Shown here in pieces: positions 13,000 through 43,497 of a stretch of DNA of 50,805 nt. The notes beneath the pieces are model-generated. The model did not search any database, was not told the origin of the DNA, and saw only the letters and a program-made list of their open reading frames with translations. The translations under genes were made by a program, and so were the position numbers. The DNA comes from Akkermansiaceae bacterium (GTDB lineage: Bacteria; Verrucomicrobiota; Verrucomicrobiia; Verrucomicrobiales; Akkermansiaceae): assembly GCA_028822935.1 (NCBI GenBank), contig JAPKCM010000035.1:1-50805 (forward strand). The letters are read 5' to 3'. Within the stretch, counting starts at the first letter, position 1. Each line of letters starts with the position of its first letter.

Positions 13000-15657
13000 T
13001 TACTCGAAGATTGCGATGACTGAAACCGACGCGCCGTTGAGAGGCAACTCGATCGTGGGAGAACTACTTGTGCTGTCCCCGGACCAGCGGACAAAGCTGG
13101 CTCCCTCTTTCGGTTTCGCGGTGAGAGTTGGTGGGAAATCGCGAAAGTATTGCCCGGTCCAGGGCGAAGCCTCCAGATCGATGGTATTAATATGAACGGT
13201 TCCCTTGGAGGGATCACTCGACGCGACAGTGACCGCGGCGAGTCCTTTGGAGAGATTGAAATGGTCGATCAAATCCTGCCGCAACTTGTCTGGACGCGCT
13301 CTGGCAAACTCGCGCATCGACTCCACATTTGATTCCCAATGCGCCACGGTGAGAGGTTCATCTTCTTCCTTGTGCGGGATGCCGAAACCGCGCGATTGGA
13401 TCCCCTCCCAGCTCCAGCGGGAAAGGTGGCGACCCATTTCGGGCCGAATTACCCCTGCCATGGTGTCGATGCGCGCCAACACACGCTCACTCTCGAACAA
13501 GGTGTTCAACAGATCGGCACAGCGTTGCACGAAGCTATTTTCGAATTCGTCGCTCTCCAGCATTTCGCGCAACAGCAAGGTCCGCCCACCACTGTTAGGC
13601 CAGCCGGTGCCACTCCCAACCGGGTTGGTGTAGAACGCGAACATGTTCTCGTAATCCGAGTAGTCGCGCCTCATCGCGGGGATGTAGACGTCGGGTTTCC
13701 ACAGATTGAAACTGTAGTCTTGATCGTAGAGCATCCAGTGGAACTGTCGATCTACGCCACTTCGTTGGCGCCAGCACTTGATATTTCCGATGTCAAAATT
13801 CTGCCCATAAATGACCGCCAAATGGTAGTCGATGAAATTGTCAATATCCAGGTAGAAGTCCTGGACGGTCTGGTAGTAGACACTGTTGTTCATCGGGCGA
13901 GATTGGATGAAATTACGCATCAGGTTGTAGGCCGATGACGAACCCGAGTTGGCGCTGCCATAGCCTTCGATCAGATCGATGTCGTCGGCCGGAACATCGT
14001 GGGTCGATTCGACATAGTGCTCTGAAAATTTTTCGCGGATGTTGTAAATACCCCAGTAGTCACCATTCAGGTAGAGCACCGCCGGACGGTATCCTTGGGT
14101 GTCGAGCCCGGTTTCTTCGACGAGGCTCTGCATCATCGCATCGCGGAACATCGTGAAGTTGCCGTTCACAAAATAGCTCCCGTGACTTACCGGTGTGCCG
14201 AACTCTCTGATTGGCGGGCGCGGGTAGGTCAGCCAGGTGCTCTGGTTGTCGTTGCCTGAATTGCGCAGGACGATCGATTCGAAGGAATCGACAGCCTTGT
14301 TCGGGAAGAAAGGGTGACGAATTTTCCCGTAGCCATATTCGCTGCGCGCGAACAAGGCCATCGATTTCTGCGCGTATCCACGCGATCCCCAACCGCCAAA
14401 TATTTTTAAGCCAACGTTGATGCGAAGTTTCTCACCATCTCCGGGCTCGTAGACTTCGAAACTCGCCTCCACCTCGCGGTTGCGTTTCCAGGCATTGGAC
14501 GCGCTGTAGGGAAAGTTGCCAATGATGTTCCCGCCGGCGGTAAACATATGATCCCCAAAGCCGTAAAGGTAGCCCTCAGCGAAATCAAAGTGGTCGGGAT
14601 CGGCCGCCATCGAAATCACCGGGAGTTCGTGATCGGTGCCGACAAAATAGGTGTGGGTCACGACCCGGCTACTGTGGGAACCGACCACCATCGCACGGAT
14701 TACCGTGGTCTCGCTGATCTCGATCGGATCGCTGGAAACGGTGGAACTGCTGTCCGGTTCAGAACCATCAATCGTGAAGTGGACGACGTTCCCCTCAATT
14801 GGACCGACCAGCTCCAAGGTGACCGGCTCGGCGAAAACGCCCCCGCGCACACTGAACATCGGAGCCTGAATAAACGAATCGGGAGCACCCGCGCCAAATT
14901 CGTGATTCGCTTCGCCGGGGGTCACCAGGGCGGAGCCGAACAAGTAGAAAGTTTGCAAATCATCGCGCGCGCGACCGACCGTCGTGTCGGATGTGAGTGG
15001 ACCAGGATCCAAGCGATCGATTATTGTCGAACCAGGATCGCTGAGAATAACGGGTTCACTGCCGTTGCTCAGTCTAAAGGTAGCATGCAGCTCGCCAGCC
15101 GGAACTTCGTCGTCAATTTTTCCCGATGCGAAAACGACCAGGTGCTCACCGGCTTCGAGGATCGTGCCTGGCGGAAATGCCCACTTGTCCCGGTTGATGT
15201 CGTTGTCGCTCAAGTAGTGCCCGCCCAGGTCGGCAGGCGTTTCGCCGTGATTGTAGAACTCGATCCAATCCGGAAAATCGCCATCGCCATCAGTGAAGCT
15301 GGTCTTGTTGTTGGTCATGACTTCGTTGATCACAACGGACATCGCTCTCGTTTCCGCGGGTCCCGCGATGACCCGCACGTAGCCCGCGCTTGCCCCCTCC
15401 ACAGACAGGTTCAGCTTCACTCGCAAAGGACCTAGCACGGTCAGGGTGACGTTTTTCTGACTGACCCATGAGCCCGCCGAGAGATCTGGAGAGTGCTGCA
15501 ATGTGTAAGTCAGATCTTCCCCACTGGTATTTTCAACCGTCACCCCGAGTTGCGCGCCATCGTGCCCAACTTCGACAATTCTGATTTTCACCGCGTCTTG
15601 AGCCATTGTAAAATTGATCCCTAGCAAAAGGATCGCGAGACAGAAGCAAACATGCAT
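13000..15657 (-). CDS. exported CotH-kinase-like protein with lamin-tail domain
   Basis: An 885-residue secreted protein. A signal peptide (MHVCFCLAILLLGINFTMAQ) is preceded by AGGAA. Domains in order: a short beta domain; a lamin-tail domain at about 105-230 (VINEVMTNN ... DWIEFYNHG); a chitobiase C-terminal-type domain near 265-345 (VHFTIDGSEPDSSS); a CotH domain at about 350-720 with RDAMMQSLVEETG, LYLNGDYWGIYNIREKF and HWMLYDQDYSFN; and a C-terminal repeat-like strand domain (FVRWSGDS). CotH proteins are atypical kinases that phosphorylate surface or spore-coat proteins, but activity in bacterial lamin-tail fusions is unproven. It is divergently transcribed from the FG-GAP protein, with about 100 bases between their starts. 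Confidence 0.85.
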   Translation of the reverse strand: MHVCFCLAILLLGINFTMAQDAVKIRIVEVGHDGAQLGVTVENTSGEDLTYTLQHSPDLSAGSWVSQKNVTLTVLGPLRVKLNLSVEGASAGYVRVIAGPAETRAMSVVINEVMTNNKTSFTDGDGDFPDWIEFYNHGETPADLGGHYLSDNDINRDKWAFPPGTILEAGEHLVVFASGKIDDEVPAGELHATFRLSNGSEPVILSDPGSTIIDRLDPGPLTSDTTVGRARDDLQTFYLFGSALVTPGEANHEFGAGAPDSFIQAPMFSVRGGVFAEPVTLELVGPIEGNVVHFTIDGSEPDSSSTVSSDPIEISETTVIRAMVVGSHSSRVVTHTYFVGTDHELPVISMAADPDHFDFAEGYLYGFGDHMFTAGGNIIGNFPYSASNAWKRNREVEASFEVYEPGDGEKLRINVGLKIFGGWGSRGYAQKSMALFARSEYGYGKIRHPFFPNKAVDSFESIVLRNSGNDNQSTWLTYPRPPIREFGTPVSHGSYFVNGNFTMFRDAMMQSLVEETGLDTQGYRPAVLYLNGDYWGIYNIREKFSEHYVESTHDVPADDIDLIEGYGSANSGSSSAYNLMRNFIQSRPMNNSVYYQTVQDFYLDIDNFIDYHLAVIYGQNFDIGNIKCWRQRSGVDRQFHWMLYDQDYSFNLWKPDVYIPAMRRDYSDYENMFAFYTNPVGSGTGWPNSGGRTLLLREMLESDEFENSFVQRCADLLNTLFESERVLARIDTMAGVIRPEMGRHLSRWSWEGIQSRGFGIPHKEEDEPLTVAHWESNVESMREFARARPDKLRQDLIDHFNLSKGLAAVTVASSDPSKGTVHINTIDLEASPWTGQYFRDFPPTLTAKPKEGASFVRWSGDSTSSSPTIELPLNGASVSVIAIFE

Positions 15658-15760: not shown

Positions 15761-17614
15761 ATGAGGAGGAACCCACTTTTAACCCTCGTCTCATTCCGGT
15801 CAGCAGATGGCAAGGCGAGATCGCTTGGTATTTGCTTATTCGGAGTAGGCCTGTGCGGTATCGTCTTTGTCCTGGCGGGATATTTCCTTAAGGACAAGGC
15901 CTCTGAAATCGAGGCGAATCCCCCCAAGCTCGATCCGGGCGCACTTGACTCGAATAGTGCCCCCGGGGGCGCGAATGAGATCACGGATTTGTGGAGCACT
16001 TCGATCAAGGAGCAGTTGGTTCATATCGCAAATGCGATTTCGAACCCCGATGGAGATGAGATCTCGATGTCACTCGCTGACCGCGTCAGCATCGTCGATC
16101 CCCAACAATTTCGTGAGAAGGAACTCTACCATGGCCAGTCGGTAAGAGTCGTCGGGCTCAGCCTGCCCGAGGAGCTGGAGACTTCGGCTGTGATCGAGGT
16201 GGATAAGAGCGACTTCATCGATCGGATTCGGCCGTTGCTTTTTCTCGGTTCTGAGGCGCCTGAGGATGCGGTCCACCTCAAATTGTTTGGCATTAGTAGG
16301 GATGGCGCAGATCTCAGCACAAAGCAGCGCCTGACGGCAGAGGGGACACGGGGAGGGAATGATTTTCGGTCGTCTGCGGTGGTCGAGGCAACCTGGATCA
16401 CGCCGACCACAGATGACCCGCCCCAACTGACAGGTTTTACTCTGACAAACCTTGTCCAGAGCGAACTTACGTCCGCGCCGACTTCGATTTTTGAGGACAT
16501 CGCCGGCAGTGTCCTGGGGGGCAACCCTGCTTGGGAACAGCTTCGCCTAGGCATGAATACCTGGGGGCGCCACATCGAACATTCTCTGAATCCTGATTTT
16601 TTGGGTTATCATGGACTTGCGATTGGAGATGTTGATGGAGATGGATTAGAGGATCTCTACCTGTGCCAGCCGGGAGGATTGCCGAACCTTTTGTTCCGAC
16701 AGACCCCTGACGGGAAGATGACAGATATTTCTGCCGCTGCGGGTGTCGATTTCCTCGATAATTCGACAGGAGCATTGTTGGTGGACTTGGACAATGATGG
16801 AGATGCAGATATAGCGGTGGCGACGAAAGCGGCCTTTCTGGTGATGGAGAATGACGGTACAGGGAAGTTCACCTTGCGAGGGAGCTACCCCGCAGTCGGA
16901 ATGGGCTATTCTCCGACTGCTGCGGACTATGATCTTGATGGCGATCTCGATCTCTTTGTGCTGAGATATGCTGCAACGGGATCGGATATCGGCGACTTTC
17001 CGACCCCTCACCCTTTTCGGGATGCTCGTAACGGTGGCGCGAATGTTCTTTTGGAAAACCAAGGAGCCTTTCGCTTTTTAGATGCCACTGAAAGGTGTGG
17101 CCTGGGAGCGGAAAACCATCGCTTTTCGTTTGCAGCTTCGTGGGAAGACTTTGATAACGACGGCCTGCTTGATGTTCACATCGTCAACGACTTTGGTCCG
17201 AACCAACTCTTTCGAAACGATGGAAAACGCTTTAAGGATGTTTCCGTCCAGAGCGGATCACAAGATTGGGGATTTGGGATGTCGGCAACATGGGCCGACT
17301 ATGACCGTGATGGTCACATGGATTTGTATGTCTCGAATATGTTCTCAAGCGCTGGGAACCAAATTTTGCCTCAAAGCAATCTCGATACCACTATAAGCGA
17401 AGAGATCCGGAAGAAATACCTTAAGATGGTACGCGGGAATTCCTTGTTACGGAATTCCGGGAGTGGAAGTTTTTCTGATGTGACCGATCCCATGAACGAG
17501 GGCTTTGGGGGATGGGCTTGGGGCTCTCAATTCGCAGACCTCAATAACGATGGCTGGGAGGATCTTTACGTGGCGAACGGCTACATTACGCAAGAGGACG
17601 AAGACGATTTGTGA
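15761..17614 (+). CDS. CRTAC1-type FG-GAP propeller protein, N-terminal part of an interrupted gene
   Basis: A 617-residue reading frame. ATG 15761 is preferred over the TTG at 15752 because it opens MRRNPLL and a single membrane anchor at about residues 22-42. After a unique ~240-residue region come six calcium-binding repeats of the D-x-D-G-D type (IGDVDGDGLEDLYL, LDNDGDADIAV, YDLDGDLDLFVL, FDNDGLLDVHIV, YDRDGHMDLYVS, LNNDGWEDLYVA), which build a beta-propeller on the cell surface. The frame ends at TGA 17612, directly followed by ATG in the same frame and by the missing C-terminal part of the family. The break falls inside a conserved region (VANGYIT ... DDL, then FFWRRV), so this is probably one gene split by a stop. 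Confidence 0.85.
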   Translation: MRRNPLLTLVSFRSADGKARSLGICLFGVGLCGIVFVLAGYFLKDKASEIEANPPKLDPGALDSNSAPGGANEITDLWSTSIKEQLVHIANAISNPDGDEISMSLADRVSIVDPQQFREKELYHGQSVRVVGLSLPEELETSAVIEVDKSDFIDRIRPLLFLGSEAPEDAVHLKLFGISRDGADLSTKQRLTAEGTRGGNDFRSSAVVEATWITPTTDDPPQLTGFTLTNLVQSELTSAPTSIFEDIAGSVLGGNPAWEQLRLGMNTWGRHIEHSLNPDFLGYHGLAIGDVDGDGLEDLYLCQPGGLPNLLFRQTPDGKMTDISAAAGVDFLDNSTGALLVDLDNDGDADIAVATKAAFLVMENDGTGKFTLRGSYPAVGMGYSPTAADYDLDGDLDLFVLRYAATGSDIGDFPTPHPFRDARNGGANVLLENQGAFRFLDATERCGLGAENHRFSFAASWEDFDNDGLLDVHIVNDFGPNQLFRNDGKRFKDVSVQSGSQDWGFGMSATWADYDRDGHMDLYVSNMFSSAGNQILPQSNLDTTISEEIRKKYLKMVRGNSLLRNSGSGSFSDVTDPMNEGFGGWAWGSQFADLNNDGWEDLYVANGYITQEDEDDL

Positions 17615-19738
17615 ATGTTTTTCTGGCGGCGGGTCGCGCTGCAGAGTCCGGAGGATGATCTCAAGCCGACTGCGACGCCTGGCTATTCGCGCAATTTTCG
17701 AGAATTGAATGATTTGCTTTCAAGAGGAAAATCTTTCAGTGGTCGCGAGCGGAATCCTTTATTCTTGAACCTCAAAGGCGAGGGCTTCGCAGAGGTCGGC
17801 GGGCTCCTTGGTGTCGATTTTCCAGATGATGCTCGCGCAGTGGCAACTATGGATTGGGATCGGGATGGTGATCTCGATCTGTGGATGACGAATCGCAACG
17901 CCCCTCAAGTAAGACTTTTGAGAAACAATCAGCCCGCTGGCTCATCTTCGCTTTTGATCCGACTCATCGGAAATGGGACAACGACCAACCGGGATGCCAT
18001 CGGGGCGCGGCTTGTCCTCGGACAAGCGGGTGATCCCGAACAAGAGCAAATCAGGACGGTTCATGCGGGTGGAGGATTTCTGGCCCAATCAAGTGCAGTG
18101 ATTCACTTCGGCCTGGGTGAGTCTGCCAGTGATCTTCAATTGAGCGTCACTTGGCCGGGAGGAAAAACCGAAACCTTGTCCGGCCTGAAATCGGGGAACC
18201 GTTATGTCATCACCCAAGGTCGTAAGGAATTCGAAGTGATGTCTTTGTCCGACCCGATTCAGGCTTCGATGAGTCGTGATGAGATCCCGGACACTCTGGA
18301 AAACACCGTCCCAGGGGGACTTTGGCTTGCCAATCGAGTGCCCTTTCCATCGCTGGACTATACCGACAATACGAGGGAAGCCCGTTCGACTACTTCTTCC
18401 ATCGGCAAGCCAATCTTGGTGAATCTATGGGCAACCTGGTGTGAATCTTGTGTCCGGGAACTTCAAGAATTTGGCAAGCTTGACAAGTTCCTGCAATCCA
18501 GAGGAGCGACAATTCTAGCCCTCAATGTCGATGGGCTTGCAGCAGATGGAGGGGCTTTGTCAGAGGGAACGATCGAGGAAATTCTGAAGCGCGCCGGATA
18601 CGATTTGCCTCACGGAATCGCAAGCCGTGAGGGTTTAGCGAAAGTGGAAATGATGATCGAATTTCTGACCTCCCGCCGAGATCCGATCACCATCCCATCG
18701 AGTTTCCTAATCGATGGGGAAGGAAATCTTTCGGCTATTTATGTGGGGGAGATTCAGGGAAAGCAGTTGATCAAGGATATTGATCTTTTGAGAAGCCCGC
18801 CCGCTGAGCAACTGAAACGAGCGACTCCTCGGGACGGACGATGGTTCTACGATCCACGCCAAATCGATCGAGTTGCCTTTCTTGGCGACTATGCAACTTC
18901 TTTTGCGAAGGGAGGATTCCCCGAGGAATCGCGGCGTCTCTCGCGATTGATTAAGCCACAGGATGGGACTCTCACTGCAAAAGATTATTATAACCGGGCG
19001 AAGGCCGCGGCGCGGCAAAAATTGATGGCAGAGGCGGAGCAGCTCTACCGGGAAGCGCTCCGTCTGGAGCCGGAGTTCGGTCAGGCGCTGACGGGTCTAG
19101 GAGCACTATTTCTAATGCAAAAACGTGTCGAAGAAGCGGAGAGTCTCTTTGAGAAAGCTCTCTCTATCGATCCAAATCATGCCACGGCCTTGATCAATTT
19201 AGCGATGATTGACCAATCCCGGGGACAGAAAAATCGCGCGCTTGCCCGCCTTAGAAAAGTGGTCGCCAAGAATCCTGACTATGCGGAGGCCCACCTGAAT
19301 TTGGGTTCTCTCTTGGCATCCATGAAGAAATTTGACGAGGCGATTTTACACCTCTCGAAAGCTATCGAACACAGTCCAAAGCGGGCGATTGCGCACCTTA
19401 ATCTGGCATCCATCTACATGGAAAAGCAGGAGTGGAAGAAGGCTGAACAACGATATCGACTCGTCCAGCAACTCAGCCCGAAAATGCCTTATTCGTATCT
19501 TGGCCTTGCGACCTTGCAGGCCCGCCAGGAACTTCATCCCGAGGCTGTCATTTCCTTACGCAAGGCAATCTCGCTGGGCGGTGGGAACGCAAAATCTTAT
19601 ACTCAGCTCGCGCGTTCATTGCTGGCCCTCGGCGATAAAAAAGGTGCTTCCAAAGCGCTGCTGACGGCCTTGAAAATTGATCCGAAATACGCGGAGGCAA
19701 AACAGATCATTAAGGAAAGCGGACTTCTTAGCCAATAG
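17615..19738 (+). CDS. continuation of the CRTAC1 protein: UnbV domain, thioredoxin-like domain and TPR repeats
   Basis: A 707-residue frame, in phase with the preceding one and starting at the base after its TGA. It begins with the family block FFWRRVALQSP, contains a last FG-GAP-like repeat (MDWDRDGDLDLWMT), and then an ASPIC/UnbV domain at about 115-205 (RDAIGARLVL, VTWPGGKTE). Next is a TlpA-like thioredoxin domain with WATWCESC (Cys276 and Cys279), about 255-395, and finally a TPR array from about 440 to the end (AEQLYREALRLEPEFGQAL and similar). Made alone it would lack a signal peptide and stay cytoplasmic, so it makes sense only as part of the full 1,300-residue product. ATG 17615 could in principle allow reinitiation. 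Confidence 0.8.
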   Translation: MFFWRRVALQSPEDDLKPTATPGYSRNFRELNDLLSRGKSFSGRERNPLFLNLKGEGFAEVGGLLGVDFPDDARAVATMDWDRDGDLDLWMTNRNAPQVRLLRNNQPAGSSSLLIRLIGNGTTTNRDAIGARLVLGQAGDPEQEQIRTVHAGGGFLAQSSAVIHFGLGESASDLQLSVTWPGGKTETLSGLKSGNRYVITQGRKEFEVMSLSDPIQASMSRDEIPDTLENTVPGGLWLANRVPFPSLDYTDNTREARSTTSSIGKPILVNLWATWCESCVRELQEFGKLDKFLQSRGATILALNVDGLAADGGALSEGTIEEILKRAGYDLPHGIASREGLAKVEMMIEFLTSRRDPITIPSSFLIDGEGNLSAIYVGEIQGKQLIKDIDLLRSPPAEQLKRATPRDGRWFYDPRQIDRVAFLGDYATSFAKGGFPEESRRLSRLIKPQDGTLTAKDYYNRAKAAARQKLMAEAEQLYREALRLEPEFGQALTGLGALFLMQKRVEEAESLFEKALSIDPNHATALINLAMIDQSRGQKNRALARLRKVVAKNPDYAEAHLNLGSLLASMKKFDEAILHLSKAIEHSPKRAIAHLNLASIYMEKQEWKKAEQRYRLVQQLSPKMPYSYLGLATLQARQELHPEAVISLRKAISLGGGNAKSYTQLARSLLALGDKKGASKALLTALKIDPKYAEAKQIIKESGLLSQ

Positions 19739-19884
19739 CTTTCTGGGGAATCAGCTTGACGGCACTGACGGGAATATTGAATAGTCCACAAATCTGATTT
19801 TGGTGGGTGTTCTAATCCATCGATATCTGGAGAGATTTCACCAATCTTGACGTGAAAATTTCTCAATCAATCCCTAATGGAAAT

Positions 19885-22800
19885 ATGAATACTCGAAAAA
19901 CCCTAAAGCCTGTCTTGGCAATCACGCTCTTTCTGGGAGCCGCCGCGCAAGCCAACAACATCGAAGAAGGTAAAGAATTCTATACGGCTGTTAAGGCCAG
20001 AAACCCCATCGTTCTTGATGGCGATCTCTCGGAGTGGTCTGGAGCCAACGTGATCGCAGATCCAAGGTTCTGGGAACCGAAAAATAGCGCAAGGGAGGAT
20101 CAGGAACTCGTCAACTTTGAGCTCTGGCAGGGCGGCGACTGGACAGGACCCGACGACCACACCTCTGCAGTGCGGGTTGTCTACGACGATGAAAACGTCT
20201 ATTTCGGATTTGTCGTTACAGACGAGTACCACGAGAACTCCGCTAACAGCGCATGGAACGGCGACTCGGTCCAGCTGATGGTTGCAAATGCAGCTCGCGA
20301 CAACCAGGTCGGGCTCTACAACTACGCGATCGGTGGGATCGAAAACGCCCTGGGTGAGATCGTCATCATGCACGAGTCGGGACCAGGGGGGACCGAGGCG
20401 GTTGTGACGCGTAATGCGGAAACGAAACGCACCGTTTACGAAATCAAGCTGCCCAAGTCGGCACTTGAGCTAGACGAACTCACCAGCGGAGTTCAGTTCG
20501 GACTCGGAATGGCCATCAACGACGGCGACGAGAATACCCCAGGTCAAAAGGGCTGGGGCGGCTTGGGCGCTCACTCCATTGTCCATGGAAAATCTCCAGA
20601 GCAAACTGCCCTGATCACCCTCTTTGAACCCCCAGTCTTTCCGGAGGGTAATAACATCGAAGAAGGAAAAGAACACTATACCGCCATTAAGGCAGCGAAC
20701 CCTATTGTCCTCGACGGTAATCTCGACGAGTGGAGCGGAGCCCAGGTGGTCGCCGATCCGAGATTCTGGGAACCAAAAAATAGCGCAAGAGAGGATCAGG
20801 AACTCGTCAACTTTGAGCTCTGGCAGGGAGGAAACTGGACGGGTCCCGATGATCAAACTTCGACCGTGCGGGTCGTCTACGACGATGATAACGTCTATTT
20901 CGGATTTGTCGTTACAGACGAGTATCACGAGAACGGCGCGAACAGCGCGTGGAACGGCGACTCGGTTCAGCTCATGATCGCCAACGATACGCGCGACAAC
21001 CAAGTAGCACTTTACAACTATGCCCTCGGCGGGGTCGAAGACGCCCTAGGTGACATCATCATCATGCACGAGTCGGGACCAGGGGGGACCGAGGCAGTTG
21101 TCACGCGTAATGCGGAAACAAAACGCACCGTTTACGAAATCAAGCTGCCCAAAGCGGCGCTCGATCTCAATGAATTGACTGGCGGAGTCCAATTTGGCCT
21201 CGGTATGGCCATCAACGACGGCGACAAGCTTACCCCAGGTCAAAAGGGATGGGGCGGCTTGGGCGCTCACTCCATCGTCCACGGCAAGTCGCCTGAGGAG
21301 ACCGCACTTGTCACCTTGGCCACCGCCAACAACATCGAATCGGGCAAAGAATACTATTTCGCCAGTCCGGTGACATCACCGATCGCCTTGGACGGCGAAC
21401 TCAACGATTGGGGCGGCATTGGAATTCTATCCGACCCGAGATTCTGGAGTGAAAAAGCGAAGGCGAGGGAAGATCAGGAACTCATCAATTTCGAACTCTG
21501 GCAGGGAGGAAACTGGACGGGTCCCGACGATCACACCTCGGCGGTGCAAGTCGCTTTCGATCTAGACAACGTCTATTTTGCTATCGTGGTGACGGACGAG
21601 TATCATGAAAACTCCGCCAACAGCGCGTGGAACGGCGATTCCGTTCAGCTCATGATCTCCAATGACAAGCAAGACACACAGGTTGCTCTCTACAACTATG
21701 CCCTTGGCGGCATCGAGGACGCGCTGGGAGATGTCATCGTCATGCACGAGTCGGGGCCAGGTGGAACCCAGGCAATTGTCAAGCGCGATACCGAAGCGAA
21801 GCGGACGACCTACGAGATTCTGCTGCCCAAGGCATCCTTGGGTATCGATAGCCTGGAACTGGGAACGCAGTTCGGACTCGGCATGGCAATCAACGACGGT
21901 GATGAGACCACCCCAGGTCAGAAGGGATGGGGCGGCCTCGGTGCACACTCTATCGTCCACGGGAAATCCCCTGAGCAAACCGCTCTGGTAACCTTGGGTA
22001 TCGGAGGCGGCAGCGGCTGCTTTCTTTCGGCGATCAACTCGCCGACAGTTACCTCGATAGACAAATTCAAATTTCGCGCCAACGACTTCGAGGGCTGCGT
22101 ATTTGATCCGGCGCTCACCACACTTCTCATCGATGGGCAAGCCGTTGAATTGGTCGCCAGCGAAAGAAAACAGGGGGCGGTCGATTTCACCCATACCCTG
22201 GCAGCACCCTTTGCAACCGGATCCGATCACACATTCGTGATCGAGTTACGGGACAGCAACGGAAATGTCGTTGCGTCAGATTCGGGCGACTTTGTTTCCC
22301 CCAGATTCGGAATCATAACGGCAGACATGAAGGTGACTTCAGTGGGCGATCCAGGATTTATGTGGAGAGTCTTTCTGAGTGAATTCCCCCCCGCAGCAGG
22401 CGACTTGCTCGGAGATACGGAACTTGCGTTGGCCGGTGAACTAGGCGGCGCCGCCGGCAACTTCGCCAACCCGGAACTTTTTGGCCCGGCGATAGGACAA
22501 GGCATCGTTGCTGGTCCGCTTGTCGAGTTTGAGATCCCTACGGTGATCAACTTGAGCTTAATTGAAGGAGAAGCGAACGGCAACTTCGAGCTGGACGACC
22601 AAATGCCAGGCGTCCCGGGGGTAAACAATATCGGCGACGGCGCCAGCGCTGAAATTCTCACGTTCATCGAGTTCCCGACGGCTGGAATCATCACACTCGG
22701 CGTGAATAGTGACGATGGCTTTCGGATGGAAGGCGGTCCTCATGATCAACCCCAGCTGCGCGAGACTTTGGGCCAGGAGCCCAACGCCCGTGGAGCAGCG

Positions 22801-23217
22801 GATTCCATCTTTTCCTTCCAAGTCGATGAACCGGGCATTTACCCGATTCGAGTCATTTGGTGGAACGGTGGCGGGGGTGCGAATATCGAGCTCTTCAGCG
22901 TGAAAGATGATGGGACGAAGGTCCTCTTGAATGATGTCGCAAACGGAGGCCTCCAAACATACAGCTCCCAAGTGCGTGCTCCATTTGAATTCACCAGCAT
23001 CACACGGGATGCCGACGAAAACTTGACCTTGGTGTGGAATTCAACGCCTTGGATCATCTATGCCTTGGATTACGCCACCTCATTGGATTCACAGTGGCAG
23101 GAATTGGATGACTCCTTGCCATCACAGGGAACCAGCACCGAAATCGTAATCAGTGCGGCGACTGCAGATTCCCTCAGTGAATCTGGACGCCTCTTTTTCC
23201 GAGTTCGGAAACCATAG
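19885..23217 (+). CDS. secreted protein with three tandem CBM9-like domains and a PA14-like region
   Basis: A 1,110-residue protein. ATG 19885 is chosen over GTG 19852 because it starts a clean signal peptide (MNTRKTLKPVLAITLFLG, cleavage after AQA). Three consecutive ~226-232-residue domains follow (from 19954, 20650 and 21328). Each carries PIVLDG.L.EWSG, DPRFWE, NFELWQGG.WTGPDD, VTDEYHEN and GQKGWGGLGAHSIVHGKSPE. The pattern resembles family 9 carbohydrate-binding or DOMON-type beta-sandwiches that bind sugar chains. After about residue 710 come an Ig-like segment and a PA14-like module (GVNSDDGFRMEGG, WWNGGGGANIELF), and the C-terminal domain common in verrucomicrobial exported proteins (WNSTPWIIYALDYATS). 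No catalytic domain is visible, so it is probably a glycan-binding surface protein. A strong terminator follows. Confidence 0.85.
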   Translation: MNTRKTLKPVLAITLFLGAAAQANNIEEGKEFYTAVKARNPIVLDGDLSEWSGANVIADPRFWEPKNSAREDQELVNFELWQGGDWTGPDDHTSAVRVVYDDENVYFGFVVTDEYHENSANSAWNGDSVQLMVANAARDNQVGLYNYAIGGIENALGEIVIMHESGPGGTEAVVTRNAETKRTVYEIKLPKSALELDELTSGVQFGLGMAINDGDENTPGQKGWGGLGAHSIVHGKSPEQTALITLFEPPVFPEGNNIEEGKEHYTAIKAANPIVLDGNLDEWSGAQVVADPRFWEPKNSAREDQELVNFELWQGGNWTGPDDQTSTVRVVYDDDNVYFGFVVTDEYHENGANSAWNGDSVQLMIANDTRDNQVALYNYALGGVEDALGDIIIMHESGPGGTEAVVTRNAETKRTVYEIKLPKAALDLNELTGGVQFGLGMAINDGDKLTPGQKGWGGLGAHSIVHGKSPEETALVTLATANNIESGKEYYFASPVTSPIALDGELNDWGGIGILSDPRFWSEKAKAREDQELINFELWQGGNWTGPDDHTSAVQVAFDLDNVYFAIVVTDEYHENSANSAWNGDSVQLMISNDKQDTQVALYNYALGGIEDALGDVIVMHESGPGGTQAIVKRDTEAKRTTYEILLPKASLGIDSLELGTQFGLGMAINDGDETTPGQKGWGGLGAHSIVHGKSPEQTALVTLGIGGGSGCFLSAINSPTVTSIDKFKFRANDFEGCVFDPALTTLLIDGQAVELVASERKQGAVDFTHTLAAPFATGSDHTFVIELRDSNGNVVASDSGDFVSPRFGIITADMKVTSVGDPGFMWRVFLSEFPPAAGDLLGDTELALAGELGGAAGNFANPELFGPAIGQGIVAGPLVEFEIPTVINLSLIEGEANGNFELDDQMPGVPGVNNIGDGASAEILTFIEFPTAGIITLGVNSDDGFRMEGGPHDQPQLRETLGQEPNARGAADSIFSFQVDEPGIYPIRVIWWNGGGGANIELFSVKDDGTKVLLNDVANGGLQTYSSQVRAPFEFTSITRDADENLTLVWNSTPWIIYALDYATSLDSQWQELDDSLPSQGTSTEIVISAATADSLSESGRLFFRVRKP
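19954..22002 (+). repeat. three in-gene tandem repeats of about 0.68-0.70 kb
   Basis: Units start at 19954, 20650 and 21328 (spacing 696 and 678 bases). Units 1 and 2 share long identical DNA stretches, for example around the blocks encoding EPKNSAREDQELVNFELW and HESGPGGTEAVVTRNAETK. Unit 3 is more divergent, so the last duplication probably produced units 1 and 2. Confidence 0.9.
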
Positions 23218-35570: not shown

Positions 35571-35825
35571 TTGAGGACACGAAGATTGTCGGAGGTCTTA
35601 CGCCCCGGGTTATACTACAAAGAACCGCGAACCACGATCTTCTTGGAAAAAGGACAATTTTTCCGTAAATATCTATTTTCCGAAAATGAGGAACCCACGG
35701 CTGATGAAGTTCACTATGGCCGAGTAGATTACGAAGCAGATGAGATGGAGGGGATCGAACTTCAGGAACTTCTTGCAGATTGTTTGGAATACCAGAGAGA
35801 CATCAACTTTCTTATTGGTGGATGA
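35571..35825 (+). CDS. possible small acidic protein, doubtful
   Basis: An 84-residue frame from TTG 35571 that fills the space between the divergent giant protein and the DUF1592 gene. Its C-terminal half is acidic and natural-looking (DYEADEMEGIELQELLADC). Its stop overlaps an ATG at 35822, in frame with the DUF1592 protein, as ATGA. Against it: a TTG start without a Shine-Dalgarno, no recognised family, and a position where promoters are expected. It could be a remnant. Confidence 0.25.
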   Translation: MRTRRLSEVLRPGLYYKEPRTTIFLEKGQFFRKYLFSENEEPTADEVHYGRVDYEADEMEGIELQELLADCLEYQRDINFLIGG

Positions 35826-35902
35826 AAGATCTTCGCCTTTTTTGTCTCGGGCAATCCTTGGCTTCCATGGGAAGCCGGGATTTGCTTCTCTTCCGTAAAC
35901 AA

Positions 35903-37849
35903 ATGCGATCTTTTTTATATGGACTCGTTTTCACGGCCAGGCTTTCGGCATCGTCGCTGGCCTTCGAGCACGACGTGCGACCAATCTTGGAACGCTCTTG
36001 CGTGAAATGCCACGGCGGAGAAAAACTGAAGGGCGAAGTCGATTTCACCAAAATCCTCACCAAGCAGGATGCTGACGCACAGTTCGAGTTGTGGGAAACC
36101 GTGATCGAAGTCATCGAAGCGAACGAAATGCCACCCGAAGATGAGCCTCAGCTGAGCGATGCGGAAAAGAAAACGATCCTCAATTGGTATCAAGGACGTT
36201 CGCAAGTCGTTATCGAAGCGAAACCTGCCGTCTTCAAGCCCCGCCGCCTCTCCGGCCCGGAGTATCGAAACACCCTGCGTTCGCTCTTCGGTTTCGACCT
36301 CGAGGTCGCGGTTGCCGAGGCTGAGCAGACCGTCATCAGCGAGAAATCGCTGGTTCTAAAACTTCTTCCCACCGACCCACCCGGAGCCAGCGGATTCATC
36401 AACGACACCCACCGCGCGCGACTGTCTCCAGTGATCTGGGATCAATATCTTCACCTGAGCAATGCGGCTCTTGAAAACCTCTTCTCGAAAAATGGCCGCG
36501 CCCAGCTAGGCGGGTTCATTGGCAACCAACTATCCGAGGATTGGCAACCGGTTGATCTGTCCCGTGACCAGGCTGAAAGACTCATCAGGGCGTTTGTGCC
36601 GCGAGCACTGCGACGACCGACTCCCGAGGAACAACTCTCCAAGATCCTGGCCGGAATTTTCGGAAAACATGGCGAAGCACTATTGGCCGCCACCAAGTTC
36701 GAACTCAAAGCCATCCTCATGTCACCCGCCTTTTTCTATCGCGGCCTATTGATGGAAGGAGATCCGAGCAAACAACAAGCAGTCGATAATTTCGAACTAG
36801 CCGAACGCTTATCGTATTTTTTATGGGAGGATCGTCCCGACGAAGAACTCACCCAACTTGCGACAGATGGTTCCCTCGGCGACAGACAAGTTTTGAACAA
36901 GCAGGTGACGCGAATGTTATCCTCCCCTAAAGCCCGTAATCTCGCCCGGAGCTTCGGCACCCAGTGGCTCAAGATCGACAGCCTCGACGGCTTACTCGCA
37001 AAAGACCCGATTCGCCACCACGCCCTCAAGACGCAGCCCCTCGATTTTCTCAACTACCTCTTTACCGAAAATCGTCCAGTGCTGGAGCTGATCGATTCAA
37101 AGATCACTTTCGTCAACGAGGGCACTTCAGGCTTCTACGGTAAAGATCGCCAACGAATGAAACGTCATGTAAAACCAAATGGCATCGAGCGACAGCGAAC
37201 GCCCAATCAAAAATTGAAACTGGTGCACGCCGAGGGTCGTGGTGGCCTCCTCACCATGCCCGGAATCCTGACAATGAACCAAGGTCCCATCCAGCGTGGC
37301 ACCTGGATGTTGAGGCAAATTTTGGGTATACAGGTTAGTGAACCACCAGCCAACACACCGCCGATCCAGGGAAGCCCGCACGGCGAGAATCTCACTTTCC
37401 GAGAACGATTCGAGGCACATCGCAGCGACCCCAGTTGTGCTCGCTGTCACGAGAAGATCGACCCGCTGGGATTCGCTTTGGAAGGCTACGATAAAAACGG
37501 CCAGTTTCTGCGCTCCACCGATCACTCCAAGAAAAAACCGGACAAAGCGATCGAACCAATCGACACCTCTGGCAAACTTCCGAGCGGTGAAACTTTCGAG
37601 ACTTTCGCGGAGCTAAAGACGATCCTCCTCACGCGCAAACGCGAACCGATTGTGCGAAACATCGTCGAACGAACTCTCGCTTACGCGCTTTGTCGAAAAC
37701 TGGAGCGCAACGACCAGCCGGTCGTGGATACCATCACGAAAAACCTGTGCGAAAATGACGGGACATGGCTTGGCCTCTTCCAACAAGTGGCAAACAGCCT
37801 TCCCTTTCGCGAAACCATTATTAAAACTGCAAATACCAGCCATGAATAA
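35903..37849 (+). CDS. planctomycete-type cytochrome c protein (DUF1587/1592/1588/1585)
   Basis: A 648-residue exported haem protein. ATG 35903 is preferred because it opens a signal peptide (MRSFLYGLVFTARLSASSLA, then FEHDVRP); ATG 35822 would add 27 residues in front. The haem motif is CVKCH at residues 33-37, within the PSD1-type cytochrome. The DUF1587 region (RRLSGPEYRNTLRSLFG), DUF1595 (YFLWEDRPDEELTQLA), DUF1592, DUF1588 (GGLLTMPGIL ... RGTWMLRQILG) and DUF1585 (ETFAELKTILL ... ERTLAYALCR) follow in the usual order. A second CARCHEKIDPLG carries a CxxCH. The stop overlaps the start of the DUF1552 gene by 8 bases, a conserved pairing. Biochemical function is unknown; glycan or peptide oxidation at the cell surface is often supposed. 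Confidence 0.9.
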   Translation: MRSFLYGLVFTARLSASSLAFEHDVRPILERSCVKCHGGEKLKGEVDFTKILTKQDADAQFELWETVIEVIEANEMPPEDEPQLSDAEKKTILNWYQGRSQVVIEAKPAVFKPRRLSGPEYRNTLRSLFGFDLEVAVAEAEQTVISEKSLVLKLLPTDPPGASGFINDTHRARLSPVIWDQYLHLSNAALENLFSKNGRAQLGGFIGNQLSEDWQPVDLSRDQAERLIRAFVPRALRRPTPEEQLSKILAGIFGKHGEALLAATKFELKAILMSPAFFYRGLLMEGDPSKQQAVDNFELAERLSYFLWEDRPDEELTQLATDGSLGDRQVLNKQVTRMLSSPKARNLARSFGTQWLKIDSLDGLLAKDPIRHHALKTQPLDFLNYLFTENRPVLELIDSKITFVNEGTSGFYGKDRQRMKRHVKPNGIERQRTPNQKLKLVHAEGRGGLLTMPGILTMNQGPIQRGTWMLRQILGIQVSEPPANTPPIQGSPHGENLTFRERFEAHRSDPSCARCHEKIDPLGFALEGYDKNGQFLRSTDHSKKKPDKAIEPIDTSGKLPSGETFETFAELKTILLTRKREPIVRNIVERTLAYALCRKLERNDQPVVDTITKNLCENDGTWLGLFQQVANSLPFRETIIKTANTSHE

Positions 37850-39455
37850 AAACTGGAACATCGAGCGCAGAACATTCCTGCGCAGCGCAGCAGGAGCGCT
37901 CGTCCCCCTGCCCTTTCTTAACCTGATGGAGAACAGCGCCAAGGCAGCATCACTGGATCTCGCCGGCGACTCTAGTCCTCCGCTGCGCTTCGTCACCCTG
38001 TTCAAACCGAACGGCGTTCATCCGCCCTCTTGGAACATCGCAGGCGGCAAGGAAACTGATTTTCGCATGTCTCCGCTGATGGCGCCATTCGCGAAACACA
38101 AGAACGACTTGCTCATTCTCGACAACATGGGCGACTTCGGCTTTTCCTCACACAGCAACTCAACCCGCCGCTTCCTCTCCGGACACCACCAGAACAAAAA
38201 CTCGGCCTCAGTTGATCAGCTCATTGCGGACAAGATCAGCGGCGACACAGCCCACCGCTCGCTCGAACTTACCACCGAGGGACTGTTCACCAATCAGATC
38301 GACTGCAGTTACATTTCCTACGACAAGAACGGAAGTCCTATTCCGCGAGAGAGCGATCCGCAACTTGTTTTCGACCGCTTGTTCCGCAACCCGATGCGTG
38401 ACCCAAATCAGCGGGAGGAAATCTCCAGTCTGCTGGACCGCGTGCGCGACGATGCAAAATCCCTACAGCGCAAAGCCGGGCGAGAAGACAAGGAAACCCT
38501 CGAAGAGTATTTCACCGTCATCCGCGAAACAGAGCAGCGCCTGGAAAACATGACCCCAGTCAGTGGCCCGGAAGGTGTTGATTTCTCCAGCCTCAAGCGC
38601 CCCGAAAGCGCAGGCAATCTCAACGAGCAAGTTGAATCGATGCTCGATGTCATGGCGATGGCCCTCTGGACCGACTCGACCCGCTGCATCAGCTACATGC
38701 TTGGCAACAGTAACAGCCGCATGATTTTCGACTTCCTCGGAATCAAGAAACAGCACCACTACCTCTCGCACTTCTTCCGTAACTTCAGCCGCTCGAACAT
38801 CGATGACCTGCTCAAGATCAGCCTGTGGCACATGGAAAAATTTGACTACCTGCTGACCAAACTAAAGTCCTATAAGGATCAAAACGGATCGCTTCTCGAT
38901 CACAGCGTCGTGCTATTCGGATCGGGCATGGGTCACAGCGACAACCACACCGCCCAGCGCATCCCGATGATTCTCGCCGGCAAGGGTGGCGGAATGCTCA
39001 AAACCGGACGCTACCTGAGGTATTCCAAAAACCAGGAAATCGGCCGATTGCACCTCGCCCTGCTTGAAAAATTCGGCATCGACTCCCCTTCCTACGCCAA
39101 CTCTTCGGCCCCCCTCCCCGGCCTCGATGGCGGCGCCTTCGAAGAATACCAGGAGCGCCCGTTCGACACCTGGGTTAAAACCGGCAAGGGAACGATCACA
39201 GTCCAGGGACGATTGCGGATGTCGGACAATCTCGATGAAGCCAAGGTCTTCTACATCGATGTGGCAGACAAACCTCCGGTGAGAATCGAGGTAAGCTTCG
39301 GCGACTTCCATGGCTTCAACCTCGCCTACCACGTCGGCACGCCCATCACCCTGACCGGGAAAATCAGCGAACGGAATGGTCGACTCGTGCTCACCAAAGT
39401 CACCGAACTCAAATCCGTCTTTGGAAAAAGCAAACCCGGAAAAGCCAAAGGATAG
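37842..39455 (+). CDS. DUF1552 Tat-exported protein with an extra C-terminal OB-like domain
   Basis: A 537-residue partner of the preceding haem protein. ATG 37842 overlaps its stop. A twin-arginine leader (ERRTFLRSAAGALVPLPFL) is followed by the DUF1552 body: FVTLFKPNGVHPPSW, GHHQNKNSASVDQLIA, SYISYDKNG, HHYLSHF, VVLFGSGMGHSDNHT, GGGMLKTGRYLRY. The fold is related to alkaline-phosphatase/sulfatase-like DUF1501 proteins, but without a proven reaction. Ordinary DUF1552 proteins end soon after that last block; this one continues from about residue 440 for about 95 residues (GTITVQGRLRMSD, FYIDVADKPPVRIEVSFG, ITLTGKISERNGRLVL) in a pattern like a small OB-fold, then a basic tail. Confidence 0.85.
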   Translation: MNKNWNIERRTFLRSAAGALVPLPFLNLMENSAKAASLDLAGDSSPPLRFVTLFKPNGVHPPSWNIAGGKETDFRMSPLMAPFAKHKNDLLILDNMGDFGFSSHSNSTRRFLSGHHQNKNSASVDQLIADKISGDTAHRSLELTTEGLFTNQIDCSYISYDKNGSPIPRESDPQLVFDRLFRNPMRDPNQREEISSLLDRVRDDAKSLQRKAGREDKETLEEYFTVIRETEQRLENMTPVSGPEGVDFSSLKRPESAGNLNEQVESMLDVMAMALWTDSTRCISYMLGNSNSRMIFDFLGIKKQHHYLSHFFRNFSRSNIDDLLKISLWHMEKFDYLLTKLKSYKDQNGSLLDHSVVLFGSGMGHSDNHTAQRIPMILAGKGGGMLKTGRYLRYSKNQEIGRLHLALLEKFGIDSPSYANSSAPLPGLDGGAFEEYQERPFDTWVKTGKGTITVQGRLRMSDNLDEAKVFYIDVADKPPVRIEVSFGDFHGFNLAYHVGTPITLTGKISERNGRLVLTKVTELKSVFGKSKPGKAKG

Positions 39456-39500
39456 GACGATCCCGAACGGATCAAAAGACCGCAGCCGCAGTATTTAGTC

Positions 39501-42500
39501 ATGATGATTTCTTGTTTCCCTTCCCTACTTGCACTCCTCCTCTTACTTCCAGCCGGGGGGGACGACTTCCCACTGGTAGCGGACGATCTTGAGGTTTCTC
39601 TCTTTGCGAAGAATCCGCTGGTACGAAATCCCTGCGCGATTACCTTCGATGCGAAGGGCCGGCTCTGTGTTGGGATGGGACCACAGTATCGTAACCCAAA
39701 GCCAGACACTCCCGGCGACTCGGTTTGGATCCTGATCGATGAAGACGAGAACGGATCAGCGGATTCGCGCAAGCAGTATGCCACCGGCTTCAACTCAATC
39801 CAGGGATTGGCTTGGCGCGGGCGGGATCTCTATGTTGCCAATGCTCCGGACCTCACCATCGCCCGCGATCTGGATGGCGACGACGTGGCGGATGAATATA
39901 TCCGTCTCTTCACCGACCTCGGAAACCTCGAACACGCCTTGCACGGACTGCAGTTCGGCCCCGACGGAAAGCTCTACATGTCGAAAGGGAATTCCAAGGG
40001 ACTCACCCGACCACCAGATCGGATTGCCCCGAAGCCCTTCCGTGAGCTGTGGGGCGTGGAGATGCCAGTTGCGCCGGACTTCCCAAAGCCGATTGCCTTT
40101 AAAAAGGGTGACTTCGAGAAGAACTACCACGATCCGGCCGATGACTGGGGACTGTCCGGGGGTGTGCTGCGCTGTGACCCGGACGGATCGAACCTTGAGA
40201 TCGTCTCGCGTGGTTTTCGTAATCCCTGGGACATCTGTTTCGATGATTCCTTTAACTGGCTCGGCACTGACAACGACCAAACCCAGGGCGACAAGATTTT
40301 CTCGCCGTTCTACGGAGCGCACTTCGGCTGGGGCCATCCTTGGTCATTCGACTGGAAGGGCGACGGTCATCTTCCCACCGCTCCCTCTTCCGGACCACTC
40401 TTCGAAGGCTCGGGAACCGGGGTCACCTATTGTGGACTGGAGCACTATCCTAAAAAATACCGTGGCATCTTTCTGATCAACGACTGGCTGAGGCGAGAAG
40501 TCATCATCTACCGGTCAAAGTGGGAAGGCGCATGGATGAAGCCGGACCGGGAGAAGCTTGAGATTTTTGCACACGCGGGTGGAGGTCGCTCGATGGGTCA
40601 GAGCACCGGGCGCAGTTTTGATCCGGTCGATATTGAAGTAGGACCCGACGGCGCGATCTACATCTCGAGTTGGGGCCGGGAATACGGCTTGAGCGAAAAG
40701 GACGGGGAACAGATCAATGAGGGTCGCATTTACCGGATCTGGCCGAAGGCGGTGCCACCGCGGATGAAGAAGGAACCCAAGAGGCAAAGATCAATTCGTG
40801 AGTGGACCACCCAGCAATTGTTGGACGATCTCGAGGAATCACTCCCGGTGTGGAGAACCAACGCACAGAATGAACTTGTGCGGCGGGGCAAAAGAGAGCT
40901 CAACTCTGAGGAATCACACTCGCATGCCTCGAAGCAGGGCTCGGTTTGGGCGTTATGGACAATGGGCCGCATGGCCCCAAAAAATGACAAATGGGATGAC
41001 ATCTTCCTCACTAGCTTGGCCGGTGATCATGGAACCGAAGACCGCACTCAGTTGATCCGGATTCTAGCGCATCGGGCCAAGGCGCGTGGGGCAAATACCC
41101 TGCCCGATCTCCTGATACGCGACCTGGAAGGAGAGAACCCGCGCTCTCGGCACGCCACCGTTCTTGCGATGCGGCAGGTAGGCGAGACCCGCTGGAACAA
41201 GAAGCTTCTGCGTCTGATCGAGCAGGAACAAGATCGCATCGTCTCCTACTCGGCTTGGGGAGCGCTCGGTGAACTCATGCCACGGGAGGAGCGGAAAGCT
41301 CTGCTCAACAACCAAGTTCCCGCAGTGAGGAGAGCGGCCTTACTTTCCCTCCTGGAGGAGGACGCCTTGAGTGAGGAAGAACTTAAACCTCTGACCAGGG
41401 ATTCCGACCAGGTAACGGCTGAACTTGCGATCAGGCGTCTCGGAGGAAAGCACCGCACCGAGATTCGCGGGGCCAGGCTGAATTCGAAAAACACAAACGT
41501 CATTCCCGAAAGGGCCGAACGAACACCAGTCTCAGTGGTCTCTGCAATTCATTCACTTCCCGACCGGAGCTACAAGGAAGCAATTCTCACCGCAGGTGCA
41601 CGCGCCTTCACCGATCGCCCTTATCGTCTCACCACCATCCCCGCCCAACTGGAAGGACTAACATTCATTCGCCCCGCCAACAACGATGCCGACCACGCCA
41701 GCGGTCCATTCCTCAACCTAACCCTGCGCTACGACTCGAAAGTCTATTTCGCCGACGACATACGGGGTGAGAAGCTGCCGACTTGGGCACGCGGGAAGTG
41801 GACCCCGACTGACATGTTTATTAAAACGAACGACTCCGCGCACCGCGTCTACTCGGCGGAGTTTTCAGCGGGCAAAATCTGCTTTGGAGCGAATCGCGAT
41901 GGCGTGAATGGGCGCAAGGGCAACTACTTCATCATCATCAAGCCTAAACTACTTCAGCCACAGGCGACCACCGCCACAGTTGCCGATGTTCTCCCCTTGC
42001 TAAAATCAGCGAACTCCTTGCGCGGTCGAGCCCTCTTCCTGAGTACGAGCGGAGCCTCTTGCGCCACCTGCCATCAGCTGGAAGGATTCGGAAACATCTT
42101 CGCTCCGGATCTCACTGGGATCGGGACACGTGCCACTCCGGAGTTCCTCGTGCGGTCCATCCTCGAACCCAGTAGCGAGATCACGGAGGGCTTCGCAATG
42201 CAGATCCTGACGACGAAGTCAGGCGACACCACGGCCGGGATTGTCTTGGAGGAAACCGGGCTTTCCGTGAAAATAGCGATGATGGATGGGGCATTGGTGA
42301 CAATCTTAAAGAAGAACATCATCAAACGCCAAACGGCTCCAATCTCCGCCATGCCACCCATCTTCTCAGGCCTCCTCTCGCCGCAGGACGTGGCTGACAT
42401 CACGGCCTATCTTCTCGTTCCGAAGGAGGAGCCAAAGACCATCCAGACTCCGAGACCACACGCAAAGCAACTCCCCAAGATTTCGCCTCGTCAGCCCTCC

Positions 42501-43397: not shown

Positions 43398-43497
43398 GAG
43401 GCCAGCTGGACTGGAGATACCCACTCCGGAGGTAGGAGATCAGCCTTCGCCCCGTTTTCATGAACGAAATTGACCCAAGTCCACGTTCACATACTGC

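Follow-up and report, generated by a model that had tools for sequence, protein, structure and literature searches.

An in-frame TGA very probably read as selenocysteine in a large CRTAC1-type protein of an Akkermansiaceae bacterium

Does an in-frame TGA end a gene, or does it encode an amino acid within a longer one? The question is raised by a locus of an Akkermansiaceae bacterium (Verrucomicrobiota; GenBank assembly GCA_028822935.1), on contig JAPKCM010000035.1, of which we analysed positions 1 to 50,805 of the forward strand (the window, i.e., the whole stretch of 50,805 nucleotides). On the plus strand, the frame at 15761-19738 translates as 617 codons, a TGA at 17612-17614, 707 further codons and a final TAG. 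A preliminary description of this DNA had reported two halves in one frame, parted by this TGA alone, with the break at DDL-stop-MFFWRRV and an ATG (17615) directly abutting the stop, and the translation agrees on each point. Pfam places FG-GAP repeats 5' of the TGA (FG-GAP_3, 125.9 bits for a cut-off of 26.9), and UnbV/ASPIC (PF07593, 56.3 bits for a cut-off of 23.4), redoxin/AhpC-TSA and TPR domains 3' of it; together with the translation, these matches bear out the earlier remark that the UnbV, WCESC thioredoxin and TPR modules are all kept downstream. Four explanations had been offered: a recent nonsense mutation, a sequencing error, programmed readthrough and reinitiation. The third stands, in the form of selenocysteine (Sec) insertion, and the other three do not. 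The sequence evidence makes us highly confident that the TGA encodes Sec and that 15761-19738 is the gene of one selenoprotein of 1,325 residues, ending in TAG; the two apparent half-genes are most likely one large protein. We favor this reading because the TGA is conserved, the hairpin that follows it covaries, the Sec machinery is present in the genome and a subfamily with cysteine exists.

The TGA is kept far beyond the window. When genome contigs were searched with the downstream half, 16 loci were obtained. TGA stands at the identical codon in the two best of them, L009 (94% identity, metagenome-assembled genome (MAG) Akkermansiaceae ANT-87) and L010 (MAG of an uncultured Verrucomicrobia bacterium; 59% identity in its best segment); L009 and L075 (G004 contig 91) are probably one contig and were counted once. 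In the window's own genome (G000, 4.59 Mb, 156 contigs), the pattern GAYYTNNNNNNNTTYTTYTGGMG has four matches, with TGA at the codon in question in all four. This genome holds at least 11 TGA copies, i.e., the window gene and ten paralogues (C28, C118, C7, C11, C106, C46, C154, C8 with two, C86 and C10), and two Cys copies (C133 and C143). A protein search of 38 relatives returned one TGA within the open frame in most rows among the matches listed, and the 60 homologue loci that were fetched comprise 54 with TGA at the column, five with Cys and one that does not span it.

The preliminary description had advised comparing the residue of homologues at this position, and the answer is divided. 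When TGA, TAA and TAG were all read through (score of at least 40, repeated contexts dropped), 130 distinct contexts were obtained: 91 have TGA, 19 Cys and 20 neither, namely 7 Glu, 4 Asp, 2 Gln, 2 Ala and one each of Asn, Gly, Leu, Phe and Ile (Phe and Ile from a more distant family). The share of 91 in 130 is not a population estimate because loci were picked by similarity to a TGA protein. The stops in the matched domains are 93 TGA (91 at the column and two at other sites of L237); TAA and TAG are absent from every matched domain of the 130 contexts. In an alignment of 36 rows (A4; 31 TGA, 5 Cys), the TGA/Cys column is one of nine invariant columns, so that the break does lie inside a conserved region, as had been suggested; the conserved insert around Sec (U) reads DL-U-(S/M)-x-x-W-R-x-V. 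This conserved column refutes a recent nonsense mutation (pseudogene) or a sequencing or assembly error, to which we give almost no chance: its sole point is that the frame is broken yet all downstream domains are intact, and it faces the same TGA in L009, L010, ten paralogues and many genomes of two phyla, with a stop that is never TAA or TAG.

Substitutions on either side of the TGA are in agreement. Between the window and L075, the 100 codons before the TGA comprise 95 identical, 3 synonymous and 2 non-synonymous ones, and the 99 codons after it 92, 6 and 1, respectively; codons 200-300 downstream, in the gap between UnbV and thioredoxin, are more variable (62, 19 and 19). Between the window and L010, changes at third positions outnumber those at first positions about threefold on either side of the TGA. 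The earlier lean toward a lesion that is very recent or not real is thus contradicted by a TGA kept across phyla and paralogues and by mostly synonymous change on both of its sides. In a quick maximum-likelihood tree of 126 rows (score of at least 80; 90 of the 91 TGA contexts included), a supported long branch parts the 19 Cys rows, grouped with 6 others, from the 90 TGA rows, which are joined by 11 others. On the TGA side, rows with Glu, Gln, Ala, Asp, Asn or Leu are dispersed and are most simply read as losses of Sec, within the limits set by the quick method and by several long branches.

Could the ribosome stop at the TGA and start again at ATG 17615, producing a propeller protein and a separate UnbV-thioredoxin-TPR protein? 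The TGAATG overlap of the window and its nearest relatives invites this explanation, but the ATG is found next to the TGA in only 5 of the 54 fetched copies, and a Ser codon (AGT/AGC) in 46. By eye, no ribosome-binding site lies just 5' of ATG 17615, and the second product would be without an export signal. Moreover, the break falls within the conserved insert, where a single frame runs on through a sense codon in the sister subfamily and others. The rarity of ATG after the TGA and the lack of a ribosome-binding site by eye led us to reject reinitiation as a general explanation, and we consider it very improbable for the window as well.

A hairpin resembling a Sec insertion sequence (SECIS) follows the TGA. 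In the window it occupies 17626-17642 on the plus strand: a 6-bp stem (17626-17631/17637-17642) begins 11 nt after the TGA, and a GGTCG loop (17632-17636) begins 17 nt after it. Escherichia coli K-12 fdhF also has an in-frame TGA, with a GGTC loop 18 nt after; its product FdhF (formate dehydrogenase H) is unrelated to the window protein. Among 44 distinct sequences, 97.7% of the stem cells are paired and 28 cells are changed on both sides. The covariation score is 0.369, against 0.122 for shuffled alignments, and none of 500 shuffles scored as high; slid versions of the stem pair in only 15-67% of cells. At least as many pairs changed on both sides (three of six) occurred in 158 of 500 shuffles. 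The loop is closed by A-U in 35 sequences and by G-C in 9, the two sides of this pair lying in different codons (RQVV versus RRVA). In a second subfamily (8 sequences), the same stem occurs with a GGTC loop, and its covariation is weak (17 of 500 shuffles as high).

The bacterial SECIS (bSECIS) model, as set out in PMC13188914 (section 5), has a loop of 3-9 nt, a stem of 4-16 bp, a spacing of 16-37 nt, a G in the first two loop positions and a minimum free energy (MFE) of at most -7.5. The window conforms to it (stem 6, loop GGTCG, spacing 17, MFE -14.2), and so do 53 of the 54 TGA forms, 44% of synonymous recodings (from a codon pool that excludes the hairpin region) and none of the five Cys forms. 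By folding energy alone, with the hairpin region included in the codon pool, 14 of the 54 TGA forms beat 95% of their own recodings. In a larger set (score of at least 80, repeated contexts dropped), the model accepts 90 of 91 TGA forms, none of the 19 with Cys and 11 of the 17 with another residue. Since the generic model is too permissive alone, we added a position-specific test: a stem of at least 5 bp with its loop 16-18 nt after the codon is present in 85 of 91 TGA forms, in none of the 19 with Cys and in one of the 17 others. GGTC stands at the loop in 74 of the 91 TGA forms and in none of the Cys or other forms.

Two unusual arrangements were observed among the homologues. L237 (G445 contig 78) has three in-frame TGA, one at the usual column and two located 21 and 25 codons later; the first is followed by an 8-bp stem with the loop 18 nt on, and the third by a GGTC hairpin at exactly 17 nt, so that L237 may be a candidate triple-Sec protein. 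L133 and L134 (G020 and G014) make up a small, divergent class that reads DG-U-TCLWR and whose hairpin differs.

Is the host able to decode such a codon? In the window's own genome, the tRNA-Sec model scores 53.9 bits for a gathering score of 47, and ARAGORN calls a tRNA-SeC with anticodon tca. SelA (485.6 bits, cut-off 267.9), SelB (278.3 bits, cut-off 242.25, with SelB-wing_3) and SelD (386.5 bits, cut-off 125) are all found. The selD gene (L187, G000 contig 53, 6429-7358) has a TGA at GGUASK, the place of UxxK, which Table 1 of PMC13188914 gives as the motif of SelD selenoproteins; this SelD is likely a selenoprotein itself. SelB was found in 21 of 24 relatives with TGA among the matches listed versus 5 of 14 others (Fisher p 0.0026), and, within Planctomycetota, in 47 of 51 genomes with TGA (out of 60 TGA-bearing ones) versus 15 of 29 without (4 of 9 with non-TGA matches only, 11 of 20 with no match; Fisher p 6e-5), both tests ignoring phylogeny and completeness. 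These data bear on readthrough with another amino acid, by a near-cognate tRNA or a changed code. The several residues found at the column in non-TGA relatives speak for it, but the full Sec machinery, the SECIS-type hairpin tied to TGA forms and the SelB association speak against it, and we rate its chances as very low.

Several observations weigh against Sec, or at least against its general need. In close relatives that lack the TGA, the residue is Glu, Asp, Gln, Ala, Asn or Leu rather than Cys, which implies that some members can do without a thiol or selenol; the Cys rows are confined to the sister subfamily, so that the Cys evidence holds at that level. The Sec position is without a CxxU or UxxC partner. 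The generic bSECIS model is permissive, as the passing of other forms attests, and a search of 17500-17800 against Rfam yielded no SECIS family, its one match being far under cut-off. The GGTC loop is missing from 17 of the 91 TGA forms, and GGTC does not occur within 48 nt after the TGA of the own-genome selD; hence, the motif is not a general requirement. Because 5 of 14 control genomes likewise score above the cut-off of the tRNA-Sec model, ARAGORN and SelA, SelB and SelD weigh more. Finally, SelB over cut-off was not found in 3 of the 24 and 4 of the 51 TGA genomes, i.e., G005, G007 and G015 (80, 88 and 65% complete), G706, G693, G650 and G571. These genomes may have missing contigs, or copies without a decoder.

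In L189, L193, L238, L239, L242-L245 and L247, close relatives from Planctomycetota, Sec is replaced by Glu, Asp, Gln or Ala, and TGA copies or SelB are present in some of the same genomes. Apparently, these relatives lost Sec without gaining Cys in its stead.

With the TGA taken as a Sec codon, SelB carrying Sec-tRNA-Sec would bind the hairpin just 3' of the TGA and insert Sec at residue 618. The product, of about 1,325 residues, would comprise an FG-GAP propeller, Sec in an insert, UnbV/ASPIC, a TlpA/ResA-like thioredoxin and TPRs. A hydrophobic N-terminal stretch, LGICLFGVGLCGIVFVLAGYF (15824-15886, plus strand, by eye), is a likely membrane anchor or export signal, and a lipobox-like LLAGC was seen by eye near the start of its relative L009. 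The protein would probably be exported, and Sec may be a redox centre outside the cytoplasm. The other features of the chain, all on the plus strand, are the best of four FG-GAP_3 propeller stretches (17147-17332, protein 1 residues 463-524), UnbV/ASPIC (17996-18205), the redoxin or TlpA/ResA-like thioredoxin domain found by domain and profile matches (18344-18754), its WCESC active-site motif, read from the sequence and translation (18437-18451), and the TPR repeats (18989-19690, protein 2 residues 459-692). WCESC has ordinary Cys, and the proposed Sec is about 275 residues upstream of it. The selenol might perhaps be recharged by the thioredoxin domain of the same chain. Recharging by a fused thioredoxin cannot hold for all members because WCxxC is missing from what was fetched of half the class A proteins: among the fetched loci, the motif occurs downstream in 22 of 44 class A (DL-U), 3 of 8 class B (EVDL-U), 0 of 5 Cys and 0 of 2 DG-U loci, some of which end at contig edges. 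An AlphaFold2 model from a three-row alignment (window, L009 and L010) was unusable (mean predicted local distance difference test score, pLDDT, of 36.8).

Decoding of UGA as Sec competes with termination. The TGA might then serve as a selenium switch, with a truncated propeller made without selenium and the whole protein with it, both being useful. This competition and the position of most FG-GAP matches 5' of the TGA are in its favor, but nothing points to a use for the short form, Sec is inside a conserved insert and more propeller-like sequence follows 3' of it. We regard such a switch, which would add to Sec insertion and not replace it, as unlikely.

Sec insertion at this codon would make the window protein a member of a large, multi-copy family of CRTAC1-type selenoproteins in Verrucomicrobiota and Planctomycetota. 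A scan of 387 genomes of the window's phylum, which scored 10 candidates per genome and therefore undercounts, showed TGA rows, among the matches listed, in no genome but the own one and G376, where they are from another family. The same phylum has Cys forms in G322 and G372 and Asp or Gly forms in G343, G256, G322 and G372 (Asp in G343 and G256). G420, the genome of L010, has two TGA copies and three Glu copies. Of 294 sampled genomes of Planctomycetota, the phylum of G422 (genome of L020), 83 gave matches at 1e-15; a TGA copy is present in at least 60 of these, 9 have non-TGA matches only and 14 fall below listing. Copies may stand close together, as in an array of four TGA rows on G571 contig 204 and a convergent pair of TGA copies on G000 contig 8 (L184).

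How does this family relate to known systems? It shares FG-GAP repeats and the UnbV/ASPIC domain with the CRTAC1/UnbV-ASPIC (PF07593) proteins, human cartilage acidic protein 1 (PDB 9etn) matching residues 438-547 of the searched piece with an E of 1.2e-13; unlike them, the window protein carries an insert that holds a Sec codon, and ends in a tail of thioredoxin and TPRs. A TlpA/ResA-like thioredoxin domain is part of the chain, and Sec-bearing thioredoxins of this kind are listed in Table 1 of PMC13188914; unlike in those, the WCESC motif keeps ordinary Cys and Sec is upstream. In this table (2026, 119 prokaryotic selenoprotein families), there is no entry for CRTAC1, UnbV, ASPIC or FG-GAP, its entries without a descriptive name being compared by sequence only through NCBIfam. 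With a 782-residue piece and E up to 1, no selenoprotein model of NCBIfam 20.0 exceeded its cut-off, the selenoprotein-type matches being NF041054 (14.7 bits, cut-off 300) and NF045694 (9.5 bits, cut-off 805); nor did a fitting selenoprotein model stand among the best 25 of 34 and of 37 matches in a further scan. The window family is not among the nine new families described in the available portion of PMC12013277, and the sought terms are absent from the text of PMC9312934. PMC4807772 reports selenoproteins in two planctomycetes, with no mention of UnbV, CRTAC or ASPIC in its main text. In the open-access literature, we found no bacterial paper joining these terms in its title or the start of its abstract. 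A selenoprotein family is itself a known kind of object; this one is apparently undescribed.

Gene finding that takes TGA as a stop splits each of these genes, and selenoproteins of about 800-1,400 residues in two environmental phyla would be hidden as propeller and UnbV/TPR fragments. More tentatively, and with somewhat less than even confidence, we propose a very large family of extracytoplasmic selenoenzymes with Sec in a propeller insert, served by a thioredoxin of the same chain in many members. Judged by its copies (at least 11 in the own genome), such a family would account for most of the demand on the Sec machinery in many Verrucomicrobiota and Planctomycetota and would be one reason for keeping it. 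If the Sec reading is right, selenium use in the two phyla would exceed what is implied by the catalogue of PMC13188914, a review that ties large selenoproteomes mainly to anaerobes, and the selenol would be a first clue to the role of bacterial CRTAC1/UnbV proteins.

The neighbouring genes in the window give no functional clue. The gene is flanked by that of a CotH-kinase/lamin-tail protein (13000-15657, minus strand) and that of a CBM9-like protein (19852-23217, plus strand), and 35780-45315 on the plus strand holds a series of PSD/cytochrome c and DUF7133/DUF6807 genes.

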